The translations under genes were made by a program, and so were the position numbers. From IMG/VR virus record IMGVR_UViG_3300006990_004842, positions 34,635 to 98,634 of that record: DNA of 64,000 nucleotides. The stretch is one strand, 5' to 3'. A model generated the notes under the pieces. The model saw only the letters and a list, made by a program, of their open reading frames with translations, made no database searches and was not told the DNA's origin. Shown here piece by piece: positions 27,645-55,521 of the stretch (its first letter is position 1; the number at the start of each line of letters is the position of its first letter). Origin of the DNA: a virus.

Positions 27645-28799
27645 CTACATCATGTCCTTGTACTTGTCTTTGAATATTTTCCAAGACTCTTGTTCATCAT
27701 ACATCCATTTAGGATCTTTGCGTTTTTCTTGAAACCAATGTGTAAAGTTTTCAATAGGACTCTGGTTTCGATTATATTTCCATTCATTATCTAATTCGCG
27801 TCTAGCAGGTACCATAACATCTAACATGCCATCTCCCGAGTCTTTTCTAGGATTCTTAAAGATGTCATGATTTCTCTGAAACGTTTGGCTTCTACCCCTT
27901 CTAGGATTATTAGATCTTTTGTAAGTTTTGATATCTTCAGCAGTGTGTGCAAAAGTTTCCATTATGGAATCTAACTTTGCTTCAACCTTGATTGCTTTTA
28001 CATACTTTTTATTTAATTCTAAGACAACATCTAATCTATGGTGACCGTTTATTAATACATTGTTTTCATCAATTATTAAAGGGTCGTAATTATTACTAGT
28101 AATTTTTTCAAATGCCTTTTTATGCATTTTTTTAGATCTGTCTTTTTGTACAGTGACTATACTTTCAGTTTTTATAAAACCTTTTTTATATGATATGTTT
28201 GCATCTAGTAAATCTTGTTCATTAATTTGAGGCATGTCTTTTCTTTCATACACGCCTTTGCCAAAGTCAAATCCACTGCTTGATTTCTTTTTCTTCTTTT
28301 TCTTTTTAGAATTTTTACTAGGACGTAATCCATAAGCAAAAAAGTGTCCTACGCCACGTGGTTCTGCAGTAGGGGTGGAGTCAGGGGAATTCGAATCGCC
28401 AGTATCGGCAACTCCGGAATCTGCAGACCCGCTGTCTCCACTTGAACCTGTTGAACCGCCATCACCACCAGCACTTGCACCAGCACCAGCACCAGCACCA
28501 GCACCAGCACCAGCACCAGCACCCGCACCACCGCCTCCGGCTTCAGCATCTATACGTGATTGCGAACGTACTTGTTGCTTATTTTCTTGTTCCCAACGTT
28601 GAATAAGTGCTCTTGCATCACGTGCCATAACATGGAATCTTGCTTGAAGCTCACGTTGTATTTGTACTTTACCCATGCCTCGTTGTACAAGTTTTGATAT
28701 TACATCGGTGTACACCGAATAATCATGCATTCCGTACTTGTCGTAAGTGAGGTCTGGAAACCTCATATCGCCTTCTCTAAAAAATTCGTTTAATTTCAT
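27645..28799 (-). CDS. ParB-fold protein with low-complexity linker and capsid-targeting-like leader
   Basis: The 384-residue protein begins MKLNEFFREGDMRFPDLTYD. A long Gly-Ala and Gly/Ser/Asp linker (residues 86-145) is coded by a 6-base repeat, followed by a run of eight Lys. Residues 215-265 hold LIIDENNVLINGHHRLDVVL, the ParB/sulfiredoxin-like GxxR site. This is the second ParB-fold protein of the cluster. The linker suggests two modules with freedom to move. Overlaps the SOD gene by 4 bases (ATGA). Confidence 0.6.
   Translation of the reverse strand: MKLNEFFREGDMRFPDLTYDKYGMHDYSVYTDVISKLVQRGMGKVQIQRELQARFHVMARDARALIQRWEQENKQQVRSQSRIDAEAGGGGAGAGAGAGAGAGAGAGASAGGDGGSTGSSGDSGSADSGVADTGDSNSPDSTPTAEPRGVGHFFAYGLRPSKNSKKKKKKKKSSSGFDFGKGVYERKDMPQINEQDLLDANISYKKGFIKTESIVTVQKDRSKKMHKKAFEKITSNNYDPLIIDENNVLINGHHRLDVVLELNKKYVKAIKVEAKLDSIMETFAHTAEDIKTYKRSNNPRRGRSQTFQRNHDIFKNPRKDSGDGMLDVMVPARRELDNEWKYNRNQSPIENFTHWFQEKRKDPKWMYDEQESWKIFKDKYKDMM
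28477..28523. repeat. tandem 6-bp repeat coding for Gly-Ala
   Basis: About seven copies of GCACCA in phase, coding alternating Gly and Ala on the minus strand. Such a repeat can change length by slippage without breaking the frame. Confidence 0.8.
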
Positions 28800-29341
28800 T
28801 CTGATAACCTTATAACCCCACAGCCAACTCTGTCACCAGCGTTTCCTGTTTTCAAACTTTCCTCGTCACCACCTTTGCCTAAATCATCTACATCAGCATG
28901 TACAACTATTGCTCTGCCTACAACACTTCGATCGCCATGTAAATCAACACGTGGTAATACTAAATCTATTTTTGCAACACCACTATCATCTGCAACAATA
29001 TTGCCTAAGTCGCCTACATGGCCTTCTTTGATATTGCCATGATCGACTCCGTCTGGATTGTAGTGTGGTCCTGCACTTGCACAACCGTCACTTAAATCAC
29101 CAAACTCATGTATGTGAAATCCATGCTCACCAGGTTCAAGTCCACTTACTTCACCCACTAACATTGTAGGCTGACCTGGATTTTGCTTAAACAAAAAATG
29201 TCCTACAACATCACCCTCTGTGTGTTCTAGTTCGCATTTTGCTTTGATTGTTTGTTCTGCTTCTTGTAAACCTTTGATACCTGCACAATCACAACCTTTT
29301 GCTTTTGTTCTAGGGCAACTTTTTACTTGTGAAAATTTCAT
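28796..29341 (-). CDS. sodC: Cu/Zn superoxide dismutase with capsid-targeting-like leader
   Basis: The 181-residue protein has all metal ligands: His76 and His78 in FHIHEFGD, His93 in GPHYNP, His101, His108 and Asp111 in the zinc loop, and His148 in VVHADVDD. The disulfide pair is Cys87 and Cys174, and Arg171 guides the substrate. It should turn superoxide into peroxide and oxygen. The N-terminal 27 residues do not belong to the enzyme: they begin MKFSQVKSCP, hold Cys-rich GCDC and end in LQE, like a leader removed by a prohead protease. There is no secretion signal, so packaging into the head is proposed. Confidence 0.88.
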   Translation of the reverse strand: MKFSQVKSCPRTKAKGCDCAGIKGLQEAEQTIKAKCELEHTEGDVVGHFLFKQNPGQPTMLVGEVSGLEPGEHGFHIHEFGDLSDGCASAGPHYNPDGVDHGNIKEGHVGDLGNIVADDSGVAKIDLVLPRVDLHGDRSVVGRAIVVHADVDDLGKGGDEESLKTGNAGDRVGCGVIRLSE

Positions 29342-32300: not shown

Positions 32301-35300
32301 TGCCTACATATTTTGCACCATGCTTTTTCTTGAATTCTTTTTCTTTGTCATCTAATTTACGTTTTTGATCAAGTGCTTTTTGTTGGCTATCAAAACCTAA
32401 CTTTTGTGAAATCTTGTCAAATTCTTCTAAGAACTCTTGTATAACATCTAATCTGCCTTGAACAAGTGCTTGTACAGGACGAACCTTATCGTAATAGTCC
32501 TTACCGTGCCTTATTTTATTAGTGTAATATCTTTCAAATGAACTTGAAATATAATTTTGAATATTGTCTCTTAATCTATGTGCAACAGGTTCGCCAAAAG
32601 GATCTGGTCGATTTATAGCATCTAATGCATCAGTTAAGTTATTTGCTACTCCTCTACGCATACCCAAAAATTCTGGACCGTCATAATCATCTTTGAATTC
32701 TGTATCTTCAATACCTTCTCCTGCCATTATTTCTGCCAGTTTATCATCTGTATCGGCTTTGTTCATGTCAATAAGATATTCCACCAAGTCACCAATTTCT
32801 TTCATAGTGTCGTGGTATACTGAAGGATTTTCTTCTTTGATATCTTCCAGGTGTTCCCAACGCATTCTCAACTTTTGCATGATTTTACTCAATGCATTTT
32901 CTCTATAACTATCATCGCCGGTTAAATTAGGATTATGTTTTCTTGATACTGGGTGGTTCCATTCTGGATACTGCTTGAGGTGATCCATGAATTTATTAAA
33001 TGCTTTTTTATTATATGGTGTTCCTGGTTCAAATAAAGGACCATAACTATAAGAACCACTTACCAGGTGTCTATGAAACTCTTTGTATTCCCTACCAATA
33101 GTACCCATATCATCTAGCATAATAGCCAATCTATCTTGCTTAGAGTCAGTGTTAGTGCCAGGCATTGCATCAGCACCCATCTTAATAAACTGTTTTGACT
33201 GCTCACTGTCTTTGATTTCTTCACTGTTTACAGCATGCCACATACCTTGTATTGCACGTTCTACATGTGATATGCTTATGTACTCAGGTTCTTTAAGAAC
33301 ATCCTTCTTGAATAATCGATCAACTCCGTTTTTGATTCTTTGAAAACGTTGACTGGGTTTAATTTTTGTATGTCTATCTGCACTAATTGTAATTTCGTCC
33401 TCAACATCTTTCATTATCTTATCAAATTGTTGATAGTTAAGTTCAAAGTCTTTTAATGTGTTTCTCAATATACCAATTGTCTTTGCATTTACAGGTTTAC
33501 GATTTAGATTTTGACTTAGATCATATCCTGCTTGAGCAACACTTAACACAAATCCTCTTTGTGCTTTGCTTAAATAATATGGTGCATTTCTGCTTGGTGC
33601 TGTTGCATCAGGTTTCATGTAACCTCTTATAGGTTCACCTTCTGTAACTTCTTCTATCTCAACTTTTTCACCAGTGGCTTTTTCATAATCTGCAATCTTT
33701 TGTTTCCACTTTTCATCTGCACCCGGTGCTGATGCTTCTTTGTATCTTTCAAGCATTTCAAATGCACCAGTAAGATAATGCATGTACTTGACAAAATTTT
33801 CTTTACCAAAGAAATTTTTCAATGCATCTATTGCAGGATGATCAACTTTACCCTTTACACTTTCCTCATCGTCTGCAGATATTTTACCAACATTATTAAT
33901 TAATCTAAACAGTGCTTTGACATAATCACCTTTATATGCTGTTTCGCTGTATGCCGCAGATAATGTTGTAGCATAACGTACAACTGCTTTCATGGTAGTT
34001 GGAAAATCATTATGATAGTCATGTCCGCCACCAATTCTAAATTCTATAAGTTGATTTTTTGTATCGCCGTCTAATTGGTCTTTGAAATTTATAGCAGTAA
34101 ATTTGTCACCCTGAATACCTGATGCTAAAATTTGTTCTATATTTTGAATTGTTTTGACATTATCAGGGTCTGCTTTTAACTTGTAGGCTAATTTTTCCAA
34201 ACTGGCCATTTGACTTTTTGCATAACTGTTACCCTTTCTGCCAAATGTACTGAGTAGATATTTGTCACCTAATAATATTGCTAACTTAACTTTATTAACA
34301 GTGATGCCGTTTGCATAGTCGTCATCATTCTTGCCTGCATAACTCATAGTGACATGCAAACCTGTTGAATTGTTTGTTTCTACATTATTTTGCTGTAGCA
34401 TATCAAACAAACTTTTCATTTCTGTAAGCATTGTACGTGGTGTTTCGTACACAGGAGAAATAATTTCTGCACCTGTGCCGTAACTGTCAATAGAGCTATC
34501 AGATTCTACACGCCAATATGTTTGATTAGCACCATAATAACTGTGATAATCTCCGTATCGTACTTCACTGCGTTCACTATTGTCATCAGCCCAAGTTTCT
34601 ACGTATTCAGAAACTTCTGCAAGGCCGCGGCCTTCCCCATCAGGATTACTCAAATAGTAACCATGTTCACTTAGTGTACTACTCCAACTACCATATTCGT
34701 CATTAGCCCAAGTATCTATGTCGTTTTCTTCACCTGCAATTTCATAGGCTCTGTCCATTGCTTCGCCTTCATCACGAATTGTTTCTTCAAGCCAATCTAG
34801 ATATTCTGCTTCGTATTCTTCTTCTACAAATTCTCTGACCCAGTTCATATAATTCCAACCATCTTCTTCGCGGTTTTGGAATTCTACAGGATCGTCTTCT
34901 TCAAATTCTGCTTTGTATTGTTCTACTGCTTCACTGCTGGGACCACTAGAACTATCTATAAAATCATTTAACTCATTTTCTTCTTCTTTGCGATCTGCTA
35001 CTAATTCGTCTATGACATCTTGCTCGTAATCCATGGCTTTTTCACCGAGCCATTCTTGATAACTTTCGTTTATCTCTTGTACAGCACGGCGGCCCTCTTG
35101 GTCATTAAGAAAATCTTCAATGTCATACCAATTATATTCATATAACCAATCGTCTTCATCGTTGGTATCTGATATGCCTTCCCAACTAGTTTCTGCTTCA
35201 AAGCCACACTTGATCGGCAAGTCTAATGCTTCTTTGGCAAGTTTTTTGTTGTTGAAATTAATTTCAAACAGTTGTTCTTTGCCTTGCTCTATGAGTTTAT

Positions 35301-41211: not shown

Positions 41212-41219
41212 TATTTATC
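41212..41219 (-). promoter_or_regulatory. late promoter GATAAATA at the helicase stop
   Basis: The box uses the TGA stop of the helicase gene (TGATAAATA). It is the border between the replication genes and the virion operon. Confidence 0.78.
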
Positions 41220-42597
41220 ACTTTTTATTCTTTATAAAGTTCATTAACTCTAGAGATTGCTGTACAGTGTTGTCTGCATTGTCGCTGTCTGCTTTTATAC
41301 TATTGCCTCTTTTCAATTGATCTACTAATCCTGCTGTGGTTACTGTGAGTGCATCTTCTTCATCTTCGTTGAGATCTTCGATTTTCAATGTATCTGGATC
41401 AAACTTCAAGTCTACTTTACTACCAACACCACTACTTGAACGTGTTTTCATAAACTGTATTTGATATCTACCACGTTCTCGCATAGCATTACTTGTAAAA
41501 ATACCCACAACATTATCTGCTGTTTGTATTTTACTAATACCACCTGCAATATGACTGTGATCAAATTCTATTTCTTCTACTGCCGCTCTGTTTAACTGCG
41601 ATGCAGTTACCATTAACAAGTTACGTTCTGCCGCTAAGTTACGCAATTCTTCTGATACAAACTTGTCTTTGATAAATGTATTTTCAGCACTTACCTTGCC
41701 ACTGATAGGCATCATTAAGTCTAAGTAGTCAACCAGCAAACAGTCGACTTTTACACCGCTTTGTATTTCATATTCACGTAAGAATGCACGTATGTCGTTT
41801 GCAGTAATACCACTTGGCATGTACTTAACACGAAACTTACCAGCACTTTTGGATTTCATTTTCACTTTTAAGTGTACGTCATCCATGTTCTTCATGATTT
41901 CTCTAGCGGCATAACCACTAACCATGCTGTCAAGACGCATACTAATAAGTTGTTCACTGAGTTCTAAACTAATGTAAACAACATTAAGTCCTGCTAAACT
42001 CCAATTCACACCAAAGTTTTGCAAGAATAAACTTTTACCTGCGCCGGAGCCTCCTGCGAAAATCGTGATTTCGCCTCTGTTCAGTCCACCGTAAAGTTTT
42101 TGATCTATCGCTTTCCACCCCGTTGACACGGCGCCGCTTTGCTGTTTTATCCATTCCAATCTCTCCTTTGGATTTTCAAAGTATTCTAAGCCCAAGTCTT
42201 TTACTAGGCCTGTTTGTACGGCATCTTTGATTTTGCTTTCAACTGTGCCATAATCCTGTTTTTCTAGCAAGTCTGTGCTTTCAATGATTGCTTTTTCTAA
42301 TGCTTTATGTCTACAAAAAGTTTCAAACTCATCCATAAACCAGTTTTGATGATCTGGCGTTATGTTGGGCACAGGTTCAATTGGAACTTTGCTGATTGCG
42401 TTTAGTTGTTCTAATGTAGGCAGTGAATTATAATGTTCACTATGACTCAACAGCAATTCAATTGCTGGTTTATATTTTGTGTTAAAGTGGTCTGGATGCA
42501 CAATGTTTTGGCATCTTGAAAATAGATCAGGATCACTGATCAAGAACCTTACAAACAGTTCTTGTATTTCTTCGTTATATTCTTTTATATCACTCAT
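41218..42597 (-). CDS. 41: replicative DNA helicase (T4 gp41/DnaB type)
   Basis: The 459-residue protein is near T4 gp41 in length. Walker A is GGSGAGKS, followed by VVYISLELSEQLISMRLDSM (RecA-like core), Walker B region VDCLLVDYLDLMMPISG and ASQLNRAAVEEIEFD. N-terminal helical domain is residues 1-150. It unwinds DNA at the fork as a hexamer and moves with the primase encoded two genes upstream. It overlaps the SGNH gene by 8 bases, so is coupled to it. Confidence 0.9.
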   Translation of the reverse strand: MSDIKEYNEEIQELFVRFLISDPDLFSRCQNIVHPDHFNTKYKPAIELLLSHSEHYNSLPTLEQLNAISKVPIEPVPNITPDHQNWFMDEFETFCRHKALEKAIIESTDLLEKQDYGTVESKIKDAVQTGLVKDLGLEYFENPKERLEWIKQQSGAVSTGWKAIDQKLYGGLNRGEITIFAGGSGAGKSLFLQNFGVNWSLAGLNVVYISLELSEQLISMRLDSMVSGYAAREIMKNMDDVHLKVKMKSKSAGKFRVKYMPSGITANDIRAFLREYEIQSGVKVDCLLVDYLDLMMPISGKVSAENTFIKDKFVSEELRNLAAERNLLMVTASQLNRAAVEEIEFDHSHIAGGISKIQTADNVVGIFTSNAMRERGRYQIQFMKTRSSSGVGSKVDLKFDPDTLKIEDLNEDEEDALTVTTAGLVDQLKRGNSIKADSDNADNTVQQSLELMNFIKNKK

Positions 42598-43399
42598 CGG
42601 GTTTGTGTATCCAGTTTAATAAATCAAGTCTTTTCCAAATACAGTCAGCCATATACTTATAGCCCATTCTGTTTGGAGTAATAAAATCGTGATTGTCAAT
42701 TAAGTCATGATCAATCAAGTCTTCTTTGTCGGACAGGAAATCGTCAGTAGTAATTGCATTGGAAATAATATGTCGCTCGGTTATCCAATTGTATGTAGAA
42801 GAAAAACGATGATATAAATCATCCCATGGCAACCTAGACTGATTTGCAGTTATAGTAAGTAATCTCATTTTACGTCTGTTGACCCATTCTTGCATCATAA
42901 TACAAGATTCAAAAAACTTATTGTTTACATACTTTGCAGAGTAATGTTTGTCTGCTTCTCTAAAATATTCCAATGCATCATCTGCAATTTTTTGAATGTG
43001 TGGTGGACAATCTATGTGGTAATCTATATCGTCTATGAAAACTTTATCTTGTATGTAATCATACTGTAACCAAAAATTATAATCTGCATTATGCAATTCA
43101 TTATTACGAGGATGTGACATTTGCCAAATAACAATATGATTTTGAGCATGGTCTTCATTTACAGATTCTAATGATTCTATTACTTTTCTAACAGACCTAG
43201 TATTAGATGCTCCTGCCATTGACATATTATGCACAGAAGAATAATATGCTTCGTAGTGTCGTGACCACGTATGTTTGCTAATAATACTTTCAAGACCAGG
43301 CCCATGAACTTGTTTACCTATGTATTCTCTTTGGACTCCTTGAGATAATGCATCGCCTACTATTGTTAATGTTGTATGATCTTGTTGGGTATACTTCAT
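42590..43399 (-). CDS. SGNH-fold protein lacking the catalytic serine
   Basis: The 269-residue protein has TIVGDALSQG at residues 12-21: this is block I with Ala17 in place of the Ser nucleophile. NMSMAGASNTRS (block II/III-like), IVIWQMSHPRNN and DFITPNRMGYKYMA (block V-like, no clear Asp-x-x-His) follow. It may bind rather than cut its ligand. It lies between helicase and primase, a place where I would not expect a sugar esterase. The start shares the AAATTATT-ATG context of the 21110 SGNH gene. Confidence 0.55.
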   Translation of the reverse strand: MKYTQQDHTTLTIVGDALSQGVQREYIGKQVHGPGLESIISKHTWSRHYEAYYSSVHNMSMAGASNTRSVRKVIESLESVNEDHAQNHIVIWQMSHPRNNELHNADYNFWLQYDYIQDKVFIDDIDYHIDCPPHIQKIADDALEYFREADKHYSAKYVNNKFFESCIMMQEWVNRRKMRLLTITANQSRLPWDDLYHRFSSTYNWITERHIISNAITTDDFLSDKEDLIDHDLIDNHDFITPNRMGYKYMADCIWKRLDLLNWIHKPDE

Positions 43400-44370
43400 A
43401 ATAATTTACTTTTAACCTGTGCCTTTATTTTGTTTGCTGTAGCATAACTTAGAATACTTTGTAAAGTTCCTAACCGTGTATATTTATTTACTGCATCAGC
43501 GGCATCTTTGCAATCATGATGCCACGGTGGAAAACTTACTTCCCAACCCAAAGCAATAGCCTGATCAATTAATTCTTTACCTGCACTATCTCTGTCAGGA
43601 CACAGTATAACACGTTTGCCTAACTTTTCAATTAAGTGTGCTTGTTCTGGTGTAACACTGTTTCCTAATACACTAACACCATCTATCAGTATAGCATCAA
43701 ATACACCTTCGGTAACAATTACAACATCTCTGTCTGTGTCTGCAAACTTATCTATATTAAACACATAGCCTTTTTGCATATTATGTAGATACTTTGGTGT
43801 CTCCTTGTCTGGTGGATTAATATGTCTAGCAGTCCAACCTACCAATTCATTATTGTAAGTAAATGGAACTACCAATCTCTGCTTGTACAAACTTTCGTTA
43901 ATGTGTAACAATGGATATATGCCCAGTAGTCCTCTTTGTTTTGCATACTGTTTTACAGGATGATTCTCAGGTAAGTGAGATACACTTTCTACTGTTTTAG
44001 GTAATTGTACAGCATCAAATTTTGCCATTGAATAAACATAATCTGTTTCTGTTGTTGCAGATAACTCTTCACTATGTTTTAATAATTCTAATTGTACAGC
44101 ATGTACATCTGCTGAACTTGCACCTAACTTTTCACAGAGATCTTTGTAACGTTTACCCATATGAGGACTCGGTGTCCAGCCAGTAGTATAATTACAATTA
44201 AAACAATGATAACTTATTTTAGTGCCATTTGTGATAATACCACCACGTTTTCTTGTGTCACTGCACATAGGACAATCCATGGTAATCCAACCACTAGGAG
44301 TTTTGTTAGTTTTAATAGGTAAATTACTAACCACTAAGTTGTGTACTGAGTAAACAATCTCATCAATCAT
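43396..44370 (-). CDS. 61: DNA primase (T4 gp61 type)
   Basis: The 324-residue protein has an N-terminal zinc site (Cys33, Cys36, Cys56, Cys59 in MDCPMC and YHCFNC) and a TOPRIM domain with VIVTEGVFDAILIDG and LCPDRDSAGKELI. It makes RNA primers for lagging-strand synthesis with the gp41 helicase. I start at ATG 44370, not the GTG at 44385, since the -10 box of a strong promoter covers 44377-44382. The mRNA would start on this ATG. Stop and next start overlap (ATGA). Confidence 0.9.
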   Translation of the reverse strand: MIDEIVYSVHNLVVSNLPIKTNKTPSGWITMDCPMCSDTRKRGGIITNGTKISYHCFNCNYTTGWTPSPHMGKRYKDLCEKLGASSADVHAVQLELLKHSEELSATTETDYVYSMAKFDAVQLPKTVESVSHLPENHPVKQYAKQRGLLGIYPLLHINESLYKQRLVVPFTYNNELVGWTARHINPPDKETPKYLHNMQKGYVFNIDKFADTDRDVVIVTEGVFDAILIDGVSVLGNSVTPEQAHLIEKLGKRVILCPDRDSAGKELIDQAIALGWEVSFPPWHHDCKDAADAVNKYTRLGTLQSILSYATANKIKAQVKSKLL

Positions 44371-44376
44371 GTGTTT

Positions 44377-44405
44377 ATTATACACTCTAAATGTCTATAA
44401 GTCAA
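44377..44405 (-). promoter_or_regulatory. sigma70 promoter for primase; predicts a leaderless mRNA
   Basis: TTGACT (44400-44405), 17 nt, TATAAT (44377-44382) on the minus strand. The predicted first RNA base is the A of the ATG at 44370. The -35 overlaps the end of the upstream gene. Confidence 0.8.
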
Positions 44406-46319: not shown

Positions 46320-46685
46320 ATGTCAGAAAACCCATATCAACAATTAGAATTCTTAACAGGAATATCGTACGCTGGTGAAGAATACGTTGGCATAGTAGTG
46401 AACCAAGATAACCAAATCATAACATTTTATGATGTACAATCAATCCCATCCAATGAGGCAAGAAAGGACTTCTTGGAGTATGGAGAACTTTGGTGGTGGG
46501 AAAGCAATAGACAGATACCAATAGATGTATTTTTGCATCATGAGATGAAAACATTTTTACCTGCTATAAAGACTTTTGCTATGAAGGATGTAGAAATATT
46601 GTTTGGTCCTGTAACTAGCCTACAAAAACTAATTAGAAAAAGAATTAAAAGACGTACTGTCCAACTAGTACGTAAAACTGACTAA
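46320..46685 (+). CDS. conserved T4-like phage protein, unknown function
   Basis: The 121-residue protein begins MSENPYQQLEFLTGISYAGE and ends in a basic stretch (LIRKRIKRRTVQLVRK). The centre has LWWWESNRQIPIDVFLHHEM. I recognise the layout as a conserved hypothetical in T4-like marine phages. A late box sits 6 nt before the ATG, and there is no ribosome site. Ends 4 bases into the convergent gene. Confidence 0.6.
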   Translation: MSENPYQQLEFLTGISYAGEEYVGIVVNQDNQIITFYDVQSIPSNEARKDFLEYGELWWWESNRQIPIDVFLHHEMKTFLPAIKTFAMKDVEILFGPVTSLQKLIRKRIKRRTVQLVRKTD

Positions 46686-47257
46686 CCCAACTGCTCAACT
46701 ATTAAATTTAACTGTGCTATAATAGCAATAGCATATCCATAACTGTGACTTTTCTTAAAGAAGTAAGTGTCGTCTTGTGGCTTTACCCAAACATCGGCCT
46801 CAATTTCTTGCCATGTCTTGCCAACTAAATGTCTTTTACCAGGTCGGATCATTGCTAGTATCATTGCTAGTTGATCTACACTTGTAGGAGGATATTGTTT
46901 TACAATATCCCAATGGTTGTTGATGTGAAATAATTGCTCTACAATGTCTTGATGTTCAAACAATTCCCAAATAGGTTCAGCATCTATTAGACTTTGTAAA
47001 TGGCTTTCACTTTTTACATCTTTGTATATGTGATTATTAAGGAAGTCGACCTTGAACCAACCTTGCTCTTCTGCATCTTTATAATCAATGGTGCTGTATC
47101 CTTCTATTGGAAGAAAAGGAATGTTCTGAAAGTACACGCCAGTATTGTGTTTTGTGTATTCACCGTTCTTCAATATACTAGCAGGAGTTGTCTTAACTAA
47201 TTTTAAGAACTCATCTCTGTTAAACATATCGATGTCTACATCAAAATCAATCTTCAT
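46682..47257 (-). CDS. conserved phage protein resembling a DnaE segment
   Basis: The 191-residue protein starts MKIDFDVDIDMFNRDEFLKL. Residues 125-190, with QLAMILAMIRPGKRH and YFFKKSHSYGYAIAI, recall two blocks of bacterial replicative polymerase DnaE (YRPG and FNKSHAAAY). A full polymerase is absent: catalytic Asp residues are not visible. It might be an ancient fragment kept as a binding domain. The operon contains gp62-like and UvsW, so a replication role is plausible. Overlaps the MazG-like gene by 11 bases. Confidence 0.55.
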   Translation of the reverse strand: MKIDFDVDIDMFNRDEFLKLVKTTPASILKNGEYTKHNTGVYFQNIPFLPIEGYSTIDYKDAEEQGWFKVDFLNNHIYKDVKSESHLQSLIDAEPIWELFEHQDIVEQLFHINNHWDIVKQYPPTSVDQLAMILAMIRPGKRHLVGKTWQEIEADVWVKPQDDTYFFKKSHSYGYAIAIIAQLNLIVEQLG

Positions 47258-47504
47258 CGCTGAACAACATACTCCACTTCATTAATTTTTCTTTTTTCTC
47301 TTTCATTCTATCTGTGATTTGTTCATTGGTGACGAGACCACTCATTTTCATTATCTCAATCATGGTCATAACGTCACCAATTTCGTCTTGGAGATTACGC
47401 AAATACTTTGTTTTGCCTTTAGTACGGATTACTTTACTACAGGCTTGTATTAACTCGCCACATTCTTCCATAGTAATGACTAACATTTCTTCGCGTTTTT
47501 TCAT
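47247..47504 (-). CDS. MazG-like nucleotide pyrophosphohydrolase
   Basis: The 85-residue protein has EECGELIQACSKVIR and LQDEIGDVMTMIEIM, the ExxE and ExxD metal-binding helices of the MazG/dUTPase-like all-alpha fold. It probably hydrolyses a nucleoside triphosphate to the monophosphate. Next to thyX, a role in dUTP removal or dNTP balance fits (inference). It is coupled to thyX by ATGA. Confidence 0.72.
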   Translation of the reverse strand: MKKREEMLVITMEECGELIQACSKVIRTKGKTKYLRNLQDEIGDVMTMIEIMKMSGLVTNEQITDRMKEKKEKLMKWSMLFSDED

Positions 47505-48160
47505 ATCTCTTTTCCTTTGAACTCTTCTGCTAATGGAAATATCTCTGCTATAACATCTGCCACAGCATGAGCAATATCCATATGCTCTTGTTGTGTGCCA
47601 TTAGCACCACGTAATTCAATATAATGAATCCAACTACGCAACGTACCATTAACGTACAAGCGGCTTAGTGTGTTTCCTTCCGGAAGTACTGCTCTTGCCT
47701 GCTCTTTGGCAATACCGTTGCTTACAGCGAAGTTATAAGCGTCTAAGGCGGCATCTATAACAGACTTTTGCATTTCCTGCCATGATAGTTCTAATGCAGG
47801 ATCATCACTAGGAATACTATTTTGCCTATTTTTAGGGTCTTGCATTCTTGCTTCACGTAATTCAAATTCTAAATCTTTTGTTGGGTCAGCATAACGTTGA
47901 CTAAACTCTTGGAAACTAAAACTCCTATGACGTAACAGTTGTCTTGCTATGTCTCTGGTTGTTTCTACTTCCATGCACACTGATACCATTTCAAGTGGTG
48001 ACCAATGTTTGTGTTTCATCAAATACTTCACAAGTTTTTCGCTTGTTTCTTTGTTGTTTTGATTATCTGGATTACTTACTCTGGCACAATAGGCCACTAA
48101 GTCTAATGCTGACTCATTGTAATCTGGTGCTTGTGAGTGACTAATTAATTTTACTTTCAT
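47501..48160 (-). CDS. thyX: FAD-dependent thymidylate synthase ThyX
   Basis: The 219-residue protein contains RHRSFSFQEFSQRY, the ThyX signature RHRxxSxxxxSxR. It makes dTMP from dUMP with FAD and methylene-tetrahydrofolate, a reaction needed for AT-rich phage DNA. Other conserved pieces are WSPLEMVSVCMEVETTRDIA near the start and SWIHYIELRGANGTQQEHMD near the end. Part of the uvsW-metK-thyX operon. Confidence 0.93.
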   Translation of the reverse strand: MKVKLISHSQAPDYNESALDLVAYCARVSNPDNQNNKETSEKLVKYLMKHKHWSPLEMVSVCMEVETTRDIARQLLRHRSFSFQEFSQRYADPTKDLEFELREARMQDPKNRQNSIPSDDPALELSWQEMQKSVIDAALDAYNFAVSNGIAKEQARAVLPEGNTLSRLYVNGTLRSWIHYIELRGANGTQQEHMDIAHAVADVIAEIFPLAEEFKGKEI

Positions 48161-48873
48161 TATATACCTGCTTGTTCACATGTGTCTTTAATTGCTTGAA
48201 CCTCATCTGGATTCTTTGCAAATACTTTAAGCCAAAATTGAGCATCAATAACATGCTCAATCATTTTGACTTGTTCACTGCTAAACCTTGTTAGCAATTG
48301 GTCTCCAGTGTTGCTCAAATAGATCAACCATGGGGATATTTTTACAGCTCTGATATCATGAACTGCTCTTGGAGCACTAACTAGTGTAAAATATTCAGTC
48401 CAATCAGCATCATTATCATTCGCCCACTCAGTGAGATAAATTACACTACGTTCTAATGCTCTCAATCCTGGTTCTTTCTTTACATACTGTAACAAGAACT
48501 CATCATACAGTTTATCTTTACTCCAGTCTGCTAATTTCTTAGCATTCTTAATCAACCATTCTGCAAACTTTTCTGGTTCTAAATATTCATTGCGAATACA
48601 ACTACGACCAAACTTAGTAAAACCTTCATAGTATTGGCTACGGATAAAGTCTTCCATAGTCTTTGGCTTACTTACAGTTGTGTTCAACTCATAGAACATT
48701 TGAAATACACGATAACCTAATCTAACGTGTGTCATATCTTTGTCTGCCCAACGTCTTTTACGTGGACACATGTGAGCGGCTAGTGTGCGTTCGCTACGAA
48801 AAGTTTTTTCGCACCACTTACACTTATTATCACTTTCCAAAGATATCTTTGATTGCTTTGTCATCGTAACCAT
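48160..48873 (-). CDS. zinc-finger phage protein, unknown function
   Basis: The 237-residue protein has CKWCEKTFRSERTLAAHMCP at residues 18-37, a C2HC-type zinc finger, followed by a helical domain with MEDFIRSQYYEGFTKFGRS. I recognise the family as conserved in T4-like marine phages. It lies between gp62-like and thyX, so a part in replication or late transcription is possible. The start overlaps gp62-like by 44 bases; the second ATG at 48864 is an alternative start. Confidence 0.6.
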   Translation of the reverse strand: MVTMTKQSKISLESDNKCKWCEKTFRSERTLAAHMCPRKRRWADKDMTHVRLGYRVFQMFYELNTTVSKPKTMEDFIRSQYYEGFTKFGRSCIRNEYLEPEKFAEWLIKNAKKLADWSKDKLYDEFLLQYVKKEPGLRALERSVIYLTEWANDNDADWTEYFTLVSAPRAVHDIRAVKISPWLIYLSNTGDQLLTRFSSEQVKMIEHVIDAQFWLKVFAKNPDEVQAIKDTCEQAGI

Positions 48874-49300
48874 GTGCTTCTGCTAATTGTTTTAATTCAT
48901 CTTTAGTGTTTATATCTAATATCATTTCCAACTCATCTGATTTGAGTGTGGGAAACAAGTCTGATAAAAACTCTGTAACCTTGTTCTTTTTCTTTCTGCT
49001 GTTTGGTGGCTTGATGTAAGGATGAAATTCTATCTTACCTGTGCCACACATACTCATCAACATCCATTGCAATTCTGGGTGCTTGTAAATCTCTTCAAAA
49101 TTTTTGTTTACAAGTTCATTAACCATAAAAATAAAATGTGCGGCATTCTTGCCTTGCACACTACTTGCATATCTCATCATCATCCATGTGCTAAATGCTT
49201 TTGTCTGTTCAGCATTTAGTCTATTATACCAACCTTTGTCTCTTTTGTCAATGGCGGCCATAACAGTTTTCAATGGCAATGCTGGTTGCTTCTTAGGCAT
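48830..49300 (-). CDS. 62: gp62-like clamp-loader small subunit
   Basis: The 156-residue protein starts at ATG 49300 (MPKKQPALPLKTVMAAIDKR) and has a helical pattern with VNELVNKNFEEIYKHPELQW and HPYIKP, resembling the clamp loader small subunit of T4-like cyanophages. It would join a gp44 ATPase (not in this window) to load the sliding clamp. Similarity to T4 gp62 itself is weak. The start overlaps the nucleosidase gene end by 8 bases. Confidence 0.55.
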   Translation of the reverse strand: MPKKQPALPLKTVMAAIDKRDKGWYNRLNAEQTKAFSTWMMMRYASSVQGKNAAHFIFMVNELVNKNFEEIYKHPELQWMLMSMCGTGKIEFHPYIKPPNSRKKKNKVTEFLSDLFPTLKSDELEMILDINTKDELKQLAEAHGYDDKAIKDIFGK

Positions 49301-49820
49301 GATAGTCCTTGTAGATTGTAATAAAGTGTTCTTCGCCCTTTGCAACATTGTCTAGCCAACTTGTATCTGCACTGTCGTCTGCATTGTCGCTTACATACTT
49401 GTAACATTTGAAATCAATGCCTCTTTGCTGACAGGCTTTTGCAATAGCAAATGCCTCCATATCAACAACGTGAGCTGGTATTTCTAAATCTGGATCTGTA
49501 ACAAAGTTATCTCCTGTGCTACATGTATACCCAATACCATTTGAAATAGTAATTGGATCTTTTGGTAACATCATTTCTATTGCCTCAGGACACTTGCCTT
49601 TATCTCGTTCAACAAAGTTAACCATTTCATGGCATCCTTCTTTTAACACAATACCACCTGCTGTTCCAAAATTCCAAACTCTAATTGGCTTGAACTTCTG
49701 TATTAACCTAGCGGCTGTTAGTGCGGCATTGATTTTACCTACACCAGTAAAAAATACATTATCCCATTTGGCCATGTTAGGTGCCTCATGTTCTAATGCT
49801 ATTAAAATTAAGTCTTTCAT
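49293..49820 (-). CDS. MTA/SAH nucleosidase-like enzyme
   Basis: The 175-residue protein begins MKDLILIALEHEAPNMAKWD and has FFTGVGKINAALTA, FGTAGG, VDMEAFAIA and KYVSDNADD, the usual sites of the PNP/UDP phosphorylase family and closest to MTA/SAH nucleosidases (MTAN/Pfs). It likely cleaves S-adenosylhomocysteine or methylthioadenosine to adenine. It is short for the family (about 230), mostly in the centre. Coupled to apt by ATGA, and metK is two genes above, so the three fit one cycle. Confidence 0.75.
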   Translation of the reverse strand: MKDLILIALEHEAPNMAKWDNVFFTGVGKINAALTAARLIQKFKPIRVWNFGTAGGIVLKEGCHEMVNFVERDKGKCPEAIEMMLPKDPITISNGIGYTCSTGDNFVTDPDLEIPAHVVDMEAFAIAKACQQRGIDFKCYKYVSDNADDSADTSWLDNVAKGEEHFITIYKDYHA

Positions 49821-50347
49821 TCGTTTATATCCATGACGCTGAATGTTTCCACTCCGCAATAGTCCTTTAGTTTAGCAGTTCCTTCTAAGAAAGTCAAGTC
49901 TATTATGCAGGCATAATTTATATCATATCCTCCTGCTTGTTTAATTAATTCTACCATAGCATTAGCAGTACCACCTGTAGCACTTACATCATCTACAATG
50001 CATATTCTATCAGTGTATGCAAACTGAACACTGTCTAGCATTTCTAAAGTTTCTTCACCGTACTCTAATGTGTATGAATATGACTTTACTTTGCCCGGCA
50101 ATTTACCAGGCTTACGAACAATGTGTAAAGGGATGCCTAATGCTAGTGCAACAGGAGCACCCCATATAAAGCCACGAGCATCGGGTGCAACAATCTGTGT
50201 TGCTTTGATACTTCTGCAATATGCAACGACCTTATCTACAGTGTACTTAAATGCTTTTGGGTCTTCGAGTATGCTTGATATATCTTTGAACATGACTCCC
50301 TCTATTGGGAAGTCAGGTACAGTACGGAGTATTTTATTGAGATCCAT
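49817..50347 (-). CDS. apt: adenine phosphoribosyltransferase
   Basis: The 176-residue protein starts MDLNKILRTVPDFPIEGVMF, the usual Apt opening, and has VVAPDARGFIWGAPVA and the PRPP-binding loop ICIVDDVSATGGTA. It makes AMP from adenine and PRPP. Beside a nucleosidase that frees adenine, it completes recycling of the base. I start at ATG 50347 which overlaps the lipoprotein stop (TAATG); a longer frame to 50374 would extend into it. Confidence 0.9.
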   Translation of the reverse strand: MDLNKILRTVPDFPIEGVMFKDISSILEDPKAFKYTVDKVVAYCRSIKATQIVAPDARGFIWGAPVALALGIPLHIVRKPGKLPGKVKSYSYTLEYGEETLEMLDSVQFAYTDRICIVDDVSATGGTANAMVELIKQAGGYDINYACIIDLTFLEGTAKLKDYCGVETFSVMDINE

Positions 50348-50832
50348 TACTGAGGGAACACCCTTAGAGGACAATTTTGAGAATACCTTCTCTTTTGAAT
50401 ATGTCCACTTAAAATAACTTTGTCTCCTGTGGTAAATGTGTAATCACCTGCTTCTTGTGATACACTGATTCCTGACCCACCATTGTGTATATCTACAAAC
50501 AACATCACACCTGGTCTCGACATACCTTGTCCAACTCTATTACCAATTGCATTTCCTATTGCGACACCTGCTCCTGTTGCAAGTACTTTTGCTAATTCGC
50601 TTTCGTCCTTTGCAACACGATTACCAACGTAACCACCAGTAATAGCACCTGCGGCTTGTGCTGTTTCAACATCGCCTTCTATGATAATATCCTTAACAGA
50701 TATAACTGTACCGGTTACAAACGGACATGGCTCTCTGGCCTCATCACGTTTAGTTACTTCAGGTTTAAGACTGCCACCAACCGCACAACCTGTGAGTGCT
50801 AAAATTAACAACGTACTTAATAATACTCTCAT
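50347..50832 (-). CDS. outer-membrane lipoprotein, SlyB/glycine-zipper type
   Basis: The 161-residue protein has a signal peptide ending in lipobox LTGC (Cys16) and two Gly-zipper segments (GAITGGYVGNRVAK and ATGAGVAIGNAIGNRVGQ), as in the 17-kDa antigen/SlyB family of outer membrane proteins. The rest is beta-like, with GDKVILSGHIQKRRY. Phages rarely carry such a host-type envelope protein; it may stabilise the envelope or block other phages. AGGAGA ribosome site. It lies between metK and apt in the operon. Confidence 0.8.
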   Translation of the reverse strand: MRVLLSTLLILALTGCAVGGSLKPEVTKRDEAREPCPFVTGTVISVKDIIIEGDVETAQAAGAITGGYVGNRVAKDESELAKVLATGAGVAIGNAIGNRVGQGMSRPGVMLFVDIHNGGSGISVSQEAGDYTFTTGDKVILSGHIQKRRYSQNCPLRVFPQ

Positions 50833-50840
50833 AATATCTC

Positions 50841-51941
50841 CTAGAACAAATTAACTTGTTCCCAAGGTAAATCTGCTTTACCAAAATGACCATAATTAGT
50901 TGTGGTCGTTAAATCTAGACCAAACAAGTCAAACCTATCAATGATACCTTTGGGTGTTAAGTCTACTAATTGTTGAATTTCGTGTGCTAAGTCAGTTCTA
51001 ACTTTGCCATCTGCATACACATAAACACTAGTTGGTTCTTTGATACCAATAGCATAACTTAATTGTACTGTGGCATTCTGTGCTTTACCACTTGCTACAA
51101 TGTTCTTAGCCAAGTAACGTGCCATGTAAGCCGCACTTCTGTCTACCTTGGTACAGTCTTTGCCACTGAATGCTCCGCCACCGTGCGGTGCGTAACCGCC
51201 GTAAGTATCAACAATAATCTTTCTACCAGTTAATCCTGTGTCACCATCTGGACCACCAACAACAAACTTGCCAGTTGGATTGATCAAGTATTCAGTATTC
51301 TCATCAATTGGTGCATTACATTCTTGTAATGCTTTTACTACTAATTGTCTAATAGCATCACGAGTGTGTTCAAGTGGATAGTCTTCTGTGTGCTGACTGC
51401 TACAAACAACTTTGCTAATTCTTAGAGGTGTATTAATGTCTGCATATTCCATAGTGACTTGACTTTTGCTGTCTGGTCCTAACCATGTACTTGCTTTATT
51501 TCTTTCTTGCTCTAAAAATTTTAGAATCTTGTGACTGTAATAAATTGCACTAGGCATGTAATCTTCTGTTTCATTACATGCATATCCAAACATCAGTCCT
51601 TGGTCACCAGCACCAAACGTGTCTGTGCCTAATGCAATATCAGGTGATTGTCCGTGTAGTTCATTGTAAACTGTTAGTGTAGCCCAATGGAAGCCATCTT
51701 GCTCGTAACCAATTTCTTTTACTACGTCTCTGACAATTTTTTCAATTGCCATTTTGTTAAATTTATCACTCTTGTACTCACCTGCCAATGTAACCATGTT
51801 GGTAGTAACCAGTGTTTCTACAGCCGCTCTGTGGCTTAGTTTTCCATCAATTAAAAATGTTGCTACAGCATCTGAAATATGATCTGCAACTTTATCCGGG
51901 TGTCCAATACTTACACTTTCGCTAGTAAATTGGTAACTCAT
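50841..51941 (-). CDS. metK: S-adenosylmethionine synthetase
   Basis: The 366-residue protein has GHPDKVADHISDAV, GAGDQGLMFGYACNET, the loop GGPDGDTGLTGRKIIVDTY and GGGAFSGKDCTKVDRS: the full MetK signature set, length near the normal 384. It makes SAM from methionine and ATP. In a phage this would support DNA or protein methylation, or refill SAM used up by host or phage. It overlaps the upstream gene by ATGA, with AGGAGA before the ATG. Confidence 0.95.
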   Translation of the reverse strand: MSYQFTSESVSIGHPDKVADHISDAVATFLIDGKLSHRAAVETLVTTNMVTLAGEYKSDKFNKMAIEKIVRDVVKEIGYEQDGFHWATLTVYNELHGQSPDIALGTDTFGAGDQGLMFGYACNETEDYMPSAIYYSHKILKFLEQERNKASTWLGPDSKSQVTMEYADINTPLRISKVVCSSQHTEDYPLEHTRDAIRQLVVKALQECNAPIDENTEYLINPTGKFVVGGPDGDTGLTGRKIIVDTYGGYAPHGGGAFSGKDCTKVDRSAAYMARYLAKNIVASGKAQNATVQLSYAIGIKEPTSVYVYADGKVRTDLAHEIQQLVDLTPKGIIDRFDLFGLDLTTTTNYGHFGKADLPWEQVNLF

Positions 51942-52435
51942 ACTAAATCTCCTATGTCTAAATCTGATACCTTGTTAAACTCCTTGACAAAAAATGCACA
52001 TCTGGGTTTCGGCTTATCCTCTAATGGTATTGCTAGTAAATGACCATTTTTTAGTTTAGGAAAGTACCATTTTACATCTTGGTAAATGTTCGTTATACTT
52101 ATTTCAAAACTGTCTGGTATCTTGTTACTTAATGGATTCATTGCTAATGCTCTAAACCCTCTATTGTTGAGACTTGTCAACGGCAAACATTCAACGCCGC
52201 CATAGTCCTCGTCACATAAAAGTATACTCCAATCCATTGGCATCTGTACATTATAATCACCAATCTGTAAACAAATTGCTGGGGCATAAAAACTTTCTAA
52301 AAAGATCAATGGTAAAAAATAAAAATCAACATCATCTGAATCACTGGCATCTAATGCACAGTATCGTAAATCATCAATTTCTTCTGGCACCGTATCTAAA
52401 TCATACGGCAGATTTTCAATAGTTAATATCTTCAT
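51938..52435 (-). CDS. conserved phage protein, unknown function
   Basis: The 165-residue protein begins MKILTIENLPYDLDTVPEEI, contains CALDASDSDDVDFYFLPLIF and ends KEFNKVSDLDIGDLV. It is acidic and strand-rich. I recognise no motif, but a protein of this type next to uvsW is a known pattern in T4-like marine phages. It overlaps uvsW and metK by ATGA on both sides. Confidence 0.58.
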   Translation of the reverse strand: MKILTIENLPYDLDTVPEEIDDLRYCALDASDSDDVDFYFLPLIFLESFYAPAICLQIGDYNVQMPMDWSILLCDEDYGGVECLPLTSLNNRGFRALAMNPLSNKIPDSFEISITNIYQDVKWYFPKLKNGHLLAIPLEDKPKPRCAFFVKEFNKVSDLDIGDLV

Positions 52436-53889
52436 TTATACTCCACTTTGGTTACAGTGTGACGAAAGTTCTGCTCCTTGTAATATGTCTTTCTTTTAGT
52501 TAGGTGTCGTCTACTGTATTTTAAGTTACTTGTTATGTCAATTATGTTAACATAATCTTTATCTTCTGCTTTTCGAATACCCCTTCCGATACTCTGTATG
52601 ACTCTTACAAAACTTTTACCTGGCTCTAATAGAACCAAATTAAATATCCTTGGTATATTAATACCAACTGCCGCAACGCCATATGTTGCAACAATAACCT
52701 TATTGTTCATCTCAGATATTTCATCATACTCAGATTGTCTATCCTTGACTTTCATACCACCACTAACAAATGCCCAATCAGGATTCATCTCAGAAAATAT
52801 TTCTCCAGTTTTAATTCTATCAATTAATACTAGTGTGTTTCCATGAGTAGACAACTCTTTAATCACAGTTGAGAGATGTGTGAGTCTATCAATGTCAGTT
52901 GTGAGCCACTTTAATTCTTGTGCATAACTGTTGAATCCTAGAGGACCATCTTGCATTTGTAATATACTAATGTCGAGGTCTGCTAGTACGCCCATATCTT
53001 GTAACTCTTTACTACTGAGCTCTCCTATAACTGGACCTAATGCACATACACAACCAACTGCTTCATGTTCATCCTTTGGTATTGTTCCAGTAAGTCCCCA
53101 ACGAATAGGAACGTTCTTAAACATACCACTCAACTGATCTCTGAGTACATCTGCTTTGGCTTTGTGTACTTCGTCTACCATAATGCAAACTACGTCCTCT
53201 AAGAATACATCTAGGTCAACTTCGGCTTCACCAGCCTTTGTTTTCTTTTCTAATACTGCAAGACTTTGCCATGTACAAATTGTATGTGTCTTGTCATATT
53301 CTTTTCTGTCACCAAACAGTACACCAACATCCATACCTAAATTCTTATAATCTTTTTCTGTTTGTACAACCAAGTCTTTGTTAGGTACAATAACAATAGT
53401 CCTGCCATAGTCTTGACACTTGTGACTAAGTACAGCAGTGATTAAAGTTTTACCTGCACCAGTTGCAATTTGTTGCAAACATTGAGGATTAGAAAGGAAT
53501 CTATTAATTGCTTCTACTTGATAGTCTCTTAATATAATAGGCAAGCCTTCTGCTGGATGATTCTTTGGCCACGCAATGTGATCAAAACTACTTGCTTCAA
53601 CAGGTTCAAAGTTGAAATCCCAACTCTGTCTATTATCAACTACCTCAACATTGTAACCTTCTTTGGTTACTATTGGTAGCAGTTGATCAAGTAGGTTGAG
53701 ATATGTTCTACCGCCTATATCGCAAAATCGAACACAACCATCCCATCTACCTAATTTGTATGCTGGCATATGATAAGCATACGGCAAAAAGTATTTCACT
53801 GCATCTGAAATCTTGCGTCTTGTTTTAACATCAAGTCCAACAAATTTAACGTTGACTTCGTCTCTAATTTCTAAAGTTACTTTTGCCAT
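52432..53889 (-). CDS. uvsW: UvsW-like DNA/RNA helicase
   Basis: The 485-residue superfamily 2 helicase has Walker A IATGAGKTLITAVL, the DEVH box MVDEVHKAKAD, motif III WGLTGTIPKDE and late motifs VIQSIGRGIRKAEDKDY. T4 UvsW (503 residues) remodels R-loops and forks and turns off early origins. The promoter TTGACT-N17-TAAAAT starts RNA one base before the ATG, so there is almost no leader. It heads a nine-gene operon down to about 46.7 kb. Confidence 0.9.
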   Translation of the reverse strand: MAKVTLEIRDEVNVKFVGLDVKTRRKISDAVKYFLPYAYHMPAYKLGRWDGCVRFCDIGGRTYLNLLDQLLPIVTKEGYNVEVVDNRQSWDFNFEPVEASSFDHIAWPKNHPAEGLPIILRDYQVEAINRFLSNPQCLQQIATGAGKTLITAVLSHKCQDYGRTIVIVPNKDLVVQTEKDYKNLGMDVGVLFGDRKEYDKTHTICTWQSLAVLEKKTKAGEAEVDLDVFLEDVVCIMVDEVHKAKADVLRDQLSGMFKNVPIRWGLTGTIPKDEHEAVGCVCALGPVIGELSSKELQDMGVLADLDISILQMQDGPLGFNSYAQELKWLTTDIDRLTHLSTVIKELSTHGNTLVLIDRIKTGEIFSEMNPDWAFVSGGMKVKDRQSEYDEISEMNNKVIVATYGVAAVGINIPRIFNLVLLEPGKSFVRVIQSIGRGIRKAEDKDYVNIIDITSNLKYSRRHLTKRKTYYKEQNFRHTVTKVEYK

Positions 53890-53896
53890 ATACTAT

Positions 53897-53925
53897 ATTT
53901 TATCTTATCTCAATGAAAAAGTCAA
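53897..53925 (-). promoter_or_regulatory. sigma70 promoter for uvsW; predicts a leaderless mRNA
   Basis: TTGACT (53920-53925), 17 nt, TAAAAT (53897-53902). The predicted RNA start is at 53890, next to the ATG at 53889. The -35 lies in the last codons of the receptor gene. Confidence 0.75.
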
Positions 53926-55521
53926 GAAGATTTTTTGTCCACCGACATTATATCCTGGAAGTATTTCAGTTACATCATCAAGTAAGTCTTGTACTGTTAA
54001 AGAAACTTCAAACTTGTCTGAAACTTTTCTTGTTAGCACAAAGTCTATTGAGGATATATCTTCTAATACTGCACCATCATATGGCCCAGGTTCTCTTTCA
54101 AACTGCCCACGGTATCTAAGTTCAGCAGTTGAATTTCCAAAACTTGCAAAATATGACACACTGCCTTTGTACTCAGGTACTCTAGGTTGATCTGTATCTG
54201 TGTATGCTAAGAATACATTTAGACTTCCATATGGTACTGGATACGTATCTTGGAACCTAATACCTTTTGTGTCGTACTTTCCTGTGTTTACATACTGGCT
54301 AATAGTTCCGTCATAGTCAATGTTTTCTTCAAACTTGTAACTGAACAATGAGAAACCTATGTAACCAAGTTCAATACCCATACCTTCTTCTGGTTGTAGA
54401 TTTGGATTTGGTTGTACCCATGAATCTCCATACTGCTGATACAATGTTGGATTTCTATAACTAGTACTGAAGTTACCATAAAGCCCTTCTAACTCATACC
54501 CAACACGATAAACTGTTGCATCTTCACTAATACGAGCACCAACTTGAAAAGTATCTCTAAAGTTAATAGTTGCATAACCACTAACATTATCTTGGTTTTC
54601 ACCAGCGTATTCTTCTTTGTCGTAAGTAATACCTGCAATAAGTTTTGCTGGTGGATAACCTAGTTCAAAAGATTCTCTGGCATCAAAGTAATAACGTTTT
54701 GCATCACTTTGCCAAGTGCTAACACCTTCAGTGAAGTATTCGCTATCTGTGTTACTGTAACCAAGAGTTAGATTGTTATTTCTAATACTGATATCAGTTT
54801 TCTCGCCGGACTGTAAACAATCATTTGACTGTGAAAACGATGCAGTATAGCAGTTGTCATAGTCATAATCATAATCAACATGTGACATTGCCACTGTGAA
54901 TCCTAGCACATCTTTAACTGACTTAATGGTTGTGTTTTTGTAATCATCTTGTTCAGTGTTATCATTACGCACACTGTCATTGACTACATCAAACGATGTA
55001 ATACTAATTGCATCAAACAGTGCTACATTTAGCAATCGGTGATCTTCACCAATTCTTACAACACCTTGATTTGATATCTCATCATTAATAAACACAGTAC
55101 CACCAAGACTACCAGAGCCATAAAGAACACCGTTTGGTCCACTAACAACTTTTACTGATTCCAACCCACTAACAATATCATGTGCAAAGTCATACCAACC
55201 TGCACCTGCATCATTAACCGGGACACCATTTCTGTAAACAGTTGTGTGTACTGTTTGAGCACCACGCTCATTGAATAATGCCGCACCGCCATAACCACCT
55301 GCAACAAATGATGTTGCTGGCATTAATGTTTCAATCAAAGAAAGATCCTGGGATACATCAGTTGCGTCTAGTATTTCTAAACTACCGACAACCACAATTT
55401 CTTCTATGTAGTCATTATTATTTTCTTCTGCCTTTAGATCAAATGCAATCATCATCACTAACATAATAAATGCCGTTATATATAATGGCATAAAGTTTTT
55501 ATCAAAATTTCCTAGTTTCAT
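53905..55521 (-). CDS. TonB-dependent outer-membrane receptor homologue (BtuB-like)
   Basis: The 538-residue protein has a signal peptide (1-31), a TonB box EEIVVVG at 40-46, a plug domain (50-150, with VKVVSGPNGVLYGSGSLGG), then a 22-strand-type barrel. SYRNPTLYQQYG and NPNLQPEEG match the receptor family signature near the BtuB group; the end is IFLTFSLR. The Cys pair in DNCYTASF and NDCLQSG may close a loop. It would sit in the outer membrane and take up a TonB substrate, bind another phage, or mask a receptor. AGAGGTAAA ribosome site. Very unusual in a phage. Confidence 0.88.
   Translation of the reverse strand: MKLGNFDKNFMPLYITAFIMLVMMIAFDLKAEENNNDYIEEIVVVGSLEILDATDVSQDLSLIETLMPATSFVAGGYGGAALFNERGAQTVHTTVYRNGVPVNDAGAGWYDFAHDIVSGLESVKVVSGPNGVLYGSGSLGGTVFINDEISNQGVVRIGEDHRLLNVALFDAISITSFDVVNDSVRNDNTEQDDYKNTTIKSVKDVLGFTVAMSHVDYDYDYDNCYTASFSQSNDCLQSGEKTDISIRNNNLTLGYSNTDSEYFTEGVSTWQSDAKRYYFDARESFELGYPPAKLIAGITYDKEEYAGENQDNVSGYATINFRDTFQVGARISEDATVYRVGYELEGLYGNFSTSYRNPTLYQQYGDSWVQPNPNLQPEEGMGIELGYIGFSLFSYKFEENIDYDGTISQYVNTGKYDTKGIRFQDTYPVPYGSLNVFLAYTDTDQPRVPEYKGSVSYFASFGNSTAELRYRGQFEREPGPYDGAVLEDISSIDFVLTRKVSDKFEVSLTVQDLLDDVTEILPGYNVGGQKIFLTFSLR

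Follow-up and report, generated by a model that had tools for sequence, protein, structure and literature searches.

What does a small protein that looks like a piece of DnaE, the replicative DNA polymerase, do in a phage? The question is raised by an open reading frame (ORF) of 191 codons at 46,682-47,257 on the minus strand of the window, that is, of the whole stretch of 64,000 nucleotides analyzed here (positions 34,635 to 98,634 of the IMG/VR virus record IMGVR_UViG_3300006990_004842). The initial annotation had called it a relic or mimic of DnaE and had pointed to two blocks, IRPGKRH and FFKKSHSYGYA. The ORF and both blocks are indeed present, and the blocks follow the order seen in DnaE. 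On the evidence of sequence profiles and a predicted structure, the 191-amino acid (aa) protein, of family phrog_11778, is one half of a minimal DNA polymerase III (Pol III) alpha subunit that is split in two: the C-terminal half, predicted to bind the metal and the template. It is referred to below as half 2.

PMC7824862 (2021) describes a split minimal DNA polymerase III alpha in the group 2.2 jumbo phages, one of which is listed as Atu_ph07. There, an N-terminal NTP-binding subunit and a C-terminal subunit that binds Mg2+ and the template are encoded by separate genes, in phages that have a family B polymerase as well, and the split enzyme is argued to model the ancestral Pol III. In two earlier genome papers, the 172-aa CBB_328 is called a truncated alpha subunit (PMC5259590), and gp316 of Atu_ph07 is called the alpha subunit (PMC6102473). 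The literature search turned up no experimental test of the split enzyme; preprints and subscription journals lay mostly outside it.

The two-gene division seen in the related phages is the same as the one in PMC7824862, with nothing essential different, although the carrier here is an uncultivated phage and the pair of genes also occurs in 141-kb phages, below jumbo size. The finding is thus mainly a confirmation, since the split enzyme has already been published. Beyond what the accessible parts of PMC7824862 contain, the present analysis adds the exact split site, an inventory of residues, and the loss of the thumb and mid-fingers, as well as a link to the clamp loader across viral contigs and the presence of the pair in two circular 141-kb phages.

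A phage protein family related to DnaE

Half 2 matches phrog_11778 (“DNA polymerase” in PHROGs) with an E value of 3.2e-69, residues 4-189 aligning to positions 6-194 of the 197 in the profile, and matches the DnaE family phrog_405 more weakly (E 2.7e-5). Scans of the protein against Pfam and NCBIfam gave no match; among three relatives scanned, that of XacN1 passes the PF17657 cut-off (E 6e-5), and the other two fall below it. A phmmer search of the Protein Data Bank (PDB) with the single sequence returned chance-level matches only. With the half-2 profile, the matches to PDB sequences are weak (best E 0.071), and all seven rows are Pol III alpha.

A comparison of alignments is more telling. 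When the half-2 family was compared by hhalign with a six-sequence DnaE alignment, the E value was 2.2e-8 (score 68.5) with 16 rows and 4.4e-7 (score 59.4) with 36 rows, over a span that corresponds to E. coli residues 509-642 and includes the RPG block. The controls stayed far lower, at 21.6 or less for 25 column shuffles of each alignment and at 23.7 and 23.0 for the reversed alignments. At the level of sequence, then, the resemblance to DnaE that the initial annotation had pointed out is beyond chance.

The predicted fold agrees. An AlphaFold2 model of half 2, built from the 36-row alignment, has a mean pLDDT of 91.6, and its best 11 rows in VIA, with Z from 9.9 down to 6.2, all belong to Pol III alpha; the next row has Z 3.6. 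The top match, 3e0d_A, covers 188/191 residues at 3.5 Å with Z 9.9. Although a Z near 10 is moderate, the match carries weight because no other family appears among the first 11 rows and the score then drops to 3.6. The structural match that the initial annotation had proposed as a check was thus obtained. Foldseek alone gives a weak best E value of 4e-3, with rows 1-10 again all Pol III alpha. PolC does not appear among the VIA matches listed for half 2, an absence that is not informative.

Relatives of half 2 are present in 63/50,697 phage records searched by tblastn. The carriers are largely jumbo phages of the kinds of Atu_ph07, RaK2, PBECO4, PA5oct, and XacN1, and they infect many host genera. 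The Atu_ph07 counterpart is 54% identical to the protein of the window. A scan of viral contigs confirmed 151 relatives, 80 of which were kept. Half-2 genes were also seen on 13 contigs assigned to bacteria and archaea of unrelated phyla in metagenome-assembled genomes; a cellular origin was considered for these and rejected, as they are most likely misbinned phage contigs. The gene is under strong purifying selection in the two close pairs whose synonymous sites are unsaturated (dN/dS of about 0.02 and 0.08); these alone are quoted, since dS exceeds 1 or has reached saturation in most of the pairs compared.

The initial annotation had stated that the protein has no catalytic Asp, and this does not hold. 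The N-terminal “..DFDVDIDM..” pairs with the E. coli palm strand that holds D401, D403, and D405, so that the D6-x-D8-x-D10 motif (47,228-47,242, minus strand) would supply these metal ligands. Further on, “GWFKVDFL” pairs with the DnaE sequence “GLVKFDFL” at the third catalytic Asp, K69-x-D71 (47,045-47,053, minus strand) corresponding to K553 and D555 in the hhalign alignment. D6, D8, D10, and D71 are identical in 62/62 distinct homologous ORFs, in 16/16 sequences down to 40% identity, and in 36/36 chosen sequences. The pairing of residues is our own, taken from the hhalign and profile alignments. The register of the D-x-D motif was set by conservation, the profile alignment being shifted by two with the E. 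coli protein and not shifted with the M. tuberculosis chain; D6 is paired with D401 because D4 is not conserved.

Other residues that are invariant in the six-sequence DnaE alignment, from which the DnaE invariants were defined, are retained as well. H511 (H37 in half 2), G514 (G40), K553 (K69), L557 (L73), R639/P640 (R138/P139), and H760 (H171) are kept in 62/62, and E547 (E63), F609 (F110, 58), G641 (G140, 57), F756 (F167), and Y764 (Y175) in 57 to 61 of 62. Three are altered: N757 to K168, Q610 to H111 (His in 58/62), and L562 to Y78. Within the finger helix, RPGK (46,835-46,846, minus strand) corresponds by hhalign to the DnaE FRPGP block from residue 638, with R138, P139, and K141 invariant. 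The second finger block, FKKSHSYGY (46,733-46,759, minus strand, with H171 invariant), corresponds to FNKSHSAAY from residue 756 through a weak profile alignment. Separately, phrog_405 positions 776-809 are matched in several relatives with a best E of 0.001, and in the window's own record with an E of only 0.34. This block lies outside the hhalign stretch and inside the structural match.

Like E. coli DnaE, then, half 2 has the palm residues D401, D403, and D555, as well as K553 and the RPG and KSH finger blocks. Unlike that single chain of 1160 residues, the phage protein is one of two chains and lacks the PHP, thumb, mid-finger, clamp-binding, OB, and C-terminal domains. Superimposed on E. 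coli 2hnh, the half-2 model spans residues 397-780, and since its 191 residues span 384 of DnaE, about half is missing. By the matched blocks, what is lost is the thumb (433-510 by the domain limits of the Pol III structure) together with the mid-fingers, most of 646-755. The missing mid-finger block includes Y686-QEQ and R709 of DnaE, which are invariant in the six-sequence alignment.

The second gene and the site of the split

The part of the palm that half 2 lacks is found elsewhere in related phages. In 9/11 records searched, the DnaE profile phrog_405 picks up a second small ORF at profile positions 340-437. This is half 1, a separate gene for about 170 aa that belongs to phrog_11127 (“DNA polymerase”) and carries a GxGRGS motif in the C-terminal pattern “..GxGRGS....EFLK.” It is already annotated as a DNA polymerase in RaK2, Paride, and Atu_ph07. 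Four half-1 proteins were scanned: three match phrog_11127 with E values of 2e-50 to 3e-85 and the fourth with 4.5e-36, and PF07733 is above the Pfam cut-off in 4/4. All of 55 chosen half-1 sequences have GVGRGS without variation, and GxGRGS is invariant in a comparison of nine. Membership of the two halves in their PHROGs families is clear, with no difference from them.

The half-1 model (pLDDT 85.7) matches Pol III alpha and PolC folds with Z 12.7 to 8.2 over 16 entries and aligns to E. coli 271-393. Against PDB sequences, the half-1 profile gives an E of 3e-4, and Foldseek alone gives 0.065 at best. For neither half does a family other than Pol III alpha (for half 1, also PolC) reach a comparable profile or fold score.

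With half 1 on 271-393 and half 2 on 397-780, it follows that DnaE is divided between residues 393 and 397; in the models, the GRGS helix lies on one side of the split site and the first catalytic strand on the other. With one ORF truncated by a contig end left out, 92/92 half-1 ORFs with a complete 3' end stop within 5 residues of the model's end, 78 of them exactly there. No fused form was found among 117 half-2 and 93 half-1 ORFs; one contig of that comparison, L230, carries both halves as separate genes, with gp44 between them. Another phage DnaE in two ORFs, gp20 and gp18, is that of Rossellomorea phage phiT1 (L241). It differs in that its neighboring ORFs, separated by an ORF of 150 bases, jointly match 91% of E. 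coli DnaE, and in the place of the split.

The two halves occur together. By tblastn, half 1 is found in 60 phage records, and comparison of accessions places all 60 among the 63 with half 2. The three negative records are two 141-kb Alishewanella phages, in both of which an HMM search detects half 1 (E 1.5e-18 and 1.0e-18), and one 109-kb unverified RaK2-like record, which is negative by tblastn and HMM. Both halves are thus in 62/63 named phage records, although many of these phages are near-identical and the independent cases are far fewer. The two circular 141-kb phages with the pair are Slicko01 and Slickus01; the usual limit for a jumbo phage is 200 kb.

Among IMG/VR records, half 2 was found in 5 of the 13 searched and in 3 of the 11 chosen for half 1; the eight records with half 1 but no half 2 may be fragments, with lengths of 65-159 kb. 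Searched for half 1 and for a family B polymerase (PolB), the 98.6-kb record of the window itself has neither and is taken for a fragment; both are present in a 250-kb relative (G001) and in 8/8 named phages. Across three sets, PolB was found in 9/11, 9/13, and 4/4 records (8/8 and 4/4 of the named phages). In Atu_ph07, Paride, and Slicko01, the PolB match is spread over two open frames. A search of nine half-1 records with phrog_405 at E values up to 10 found no Pol III alpha domain beyond the two halves, except in Phosso, where a match with E 0.01 lies in an ORF that by eye resembles a cysteinyl-tRNA synthetase. The half 2 of PBECO4 itself falls below the phrog_405 limit, so a weak further domain could be missed by this search.

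Replication genes around the two halves

Immediately downstream of half 2 in the window is a convergent ORF of 121 aa (46,320-46,685, plus strand; phrog_11637, unknown function in PHROGs), whose 3' end overlaps that of half 2 by 4 bases. A relative comes right after half 2 in 79/80 IMG/VR loci. All eight named phages viewed have an annotated convergent ORF at this place, although in XacN1 a small ORF intervenes.

Further downstream are a DNA primase (43,396-44,385, minus strand) and a DnaB-like replicative helicase (41,218-42,597, minus strand). In the IMG/VR loci, the primase is downstream of half 2 in 70/80 and the helicase in 49/80, always on the same strand as half 2; the loci were cut at 5 kb, so these and the other neighbor counts are lower bounds. 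A primase and/or replicative helicase is also found just downstream of half 2 in 7/8 named phages viewed, XacN1 being the one that differs, and in PBECO4 an “AAA family ATPase” comes after the primase.

On the other side is a 237-aa protein (48,160-48,873, minus strand; phrog_11058) with a C2H2 zinc-finger match below the Pfam cut-off, a neighbor of half 2 in 64/80 loci, and then a 172-aa protein (48,830-49,348, minus strand). The initial annotation had placed the DnaE-like gene beside gp62-like and uvsW genes, which is loosely put. There is a UvsW-type DNA helicase (52,432-53,889, minus strand; “DNA helicase” in PHROGs), but it is nine same-strand ORFs away, and the supposed gp62-like protein at 48,830-49,348 has no matches but phrog_11758 and phrog_18447, neither of which has a known function. 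A gp62-like role is hinted at only by similar-looking ORFs near gp44 in contigs L230 and L242, judged by eye. UvsW or another helicase is annotated upstream of half 2 in RaK2, PBECO4, XaC1, and Paride.

Several genes of other kinds lie in the same window. Between UvsW and half 2 are those for S-adenosylmethionine synthetase (50,841-51,941), a phosphoribosyltransferase (49,817-50,374), and thymidylate synthase (47,501-48,160), all on the minus strand. A 538-aa protein (53,905-55,521, minus strand) has TonB-dependent receptor plug and barrel domains above the Pfam cut-off, and the ORF at 28,796-29,341 (minus strand) has a copper/zinc superoxide dismutase domain (PF00080, E 4e-44), both in a phage genome.

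Half 1 has its own replication neighbor. A gp44-type clamp loader is found no more than 4 kb downstream of half 1 in 51/57 loci, each with at least 3 kb of downstream sequence. On contig L230, half 1, the clamp loader, small ORFs (identified by eye), the zinc-finger-like protein, and half 2 all lie within 6.8 kb. Slicko01 has the clamp loader three genes away from half 2, with half 1 about 11 kb upstream. The two halves are about 11 to 224 kb apart in named phages and do not form an operon.

A probable two-chain polymerase and the alternatives

From the computed homology, fold, residue retention, co-occurrence, neighborhood, and purifying selection, we infer a heterodimer, its catalysis, and its role along the following lines. 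Two polypeptides would make up a minimal DNA polymerase of family C (Pol III alpha type), with half 2 as its C-terminal subunit. Half 1 would provide the nucleotide-phosphate-binding part of the palm through GxGRGS, and half 2 the metal-binding Asp residues, a Lys that is conserved, and the finger helices that bear RPG and KSH. Once associated, the subunits would form one Pol beta-like active site and add nucleotides by two-metal catalysis. Because it has lost the thumb, mid-fingers, PHP, clamp-binding, and C-terminal domains, the enzyme would probably make only short patches and so assist the family B replicase in repair, in filling gaps, or in extending primers. It may be positioned by the clamp-loader, primase, and helicase machinery encoded nearby. 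That two chains rebuild one palm and synthesize short patches of DNA in support of the B-family replicase is, in our judgment, probable. A bolder version is conceivable but doubtful: a thumb-less family C core of two subunits and about 350 residues that is active alone, serves with the gp44-type clamp loader as the second polymerase of the replisome beside the family B replicase, and is possibly near the ancestral bacterial Pol III.

The main doubts about a polymerase concern the missing thumb and mid-fingers, whose loss could mean that polymerisation has been lost too; this leaves open a scaffold or a non-templated transferase. The altered DnaE invariants, the distance between the two genes, the IMG/VR records with half 1 alone, and the lack of half 1 and PolB in the window's own record also count against the polymerase. 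In the case of a scaffold, the split palm fold would be a catalytically dead scaffold or adaptor in the phage replisome. The location near replisome genes would fit such a subunit, and there is a precedent in inactivated polymerase homologues that are conserved as such, the inactivated B-family polymerases of archaea reportedly being one. Yet a scaffold has no need of the metal-binding Asp residues, the Lys, and GxGRGS, which are invariant, and this explanation is given a small chance. A nucleotidyltransferase that is active, works in end modification, nucleotide signaling, or priming, and does not polymerize on a DNA template would be consistent with what is left, namely, some of the fingers and the Pol beta-like core, the more so as the loss of the thumb speaks against processive templated synthesis. 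It is improbable given that the finger helices with RPG and KSH are kept and conserved and that the neighborhood is one of replication.

The two readings of the initial annotation fare much worse. A decoy for the host clamp or host Pol III parts could look like half 2, a DnaE piece without the other domains. The structural match, however, ends at E. coli residue 780 of 1160, before the clamp- and tau-binding regions; conservation is centered on the active site, the carriers are phages of many host genera, and no result points to binding of the host clamp or host DnaE. A mimic of this kind is very improbable. As for a decaying relic of a phage DnaE, the protein is shorter than DnaE, as a relic would be, but it is under purifying selection, its catalytic residues are invariant, and it has been kept over many phage genera. 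The relic has next to no probability and, given the invariant active-site residues and the purifying selection, is rejected as a general reading. Against both relic and mimic also stands the second conserved gene of related phages, which holds the missing part of the palm.

The two-chain polymerase thus remains the favored reading. With the invariant residues and the exact split site in hand, it is directly testable with two small proteins. If the halves form a working enzyme, it would be a remarkably small Pol III-type polymerase and would show how much of DnaE catalysis needs. It would also mean that a B-family and a C-family polymerase are present together in one phage replisome.
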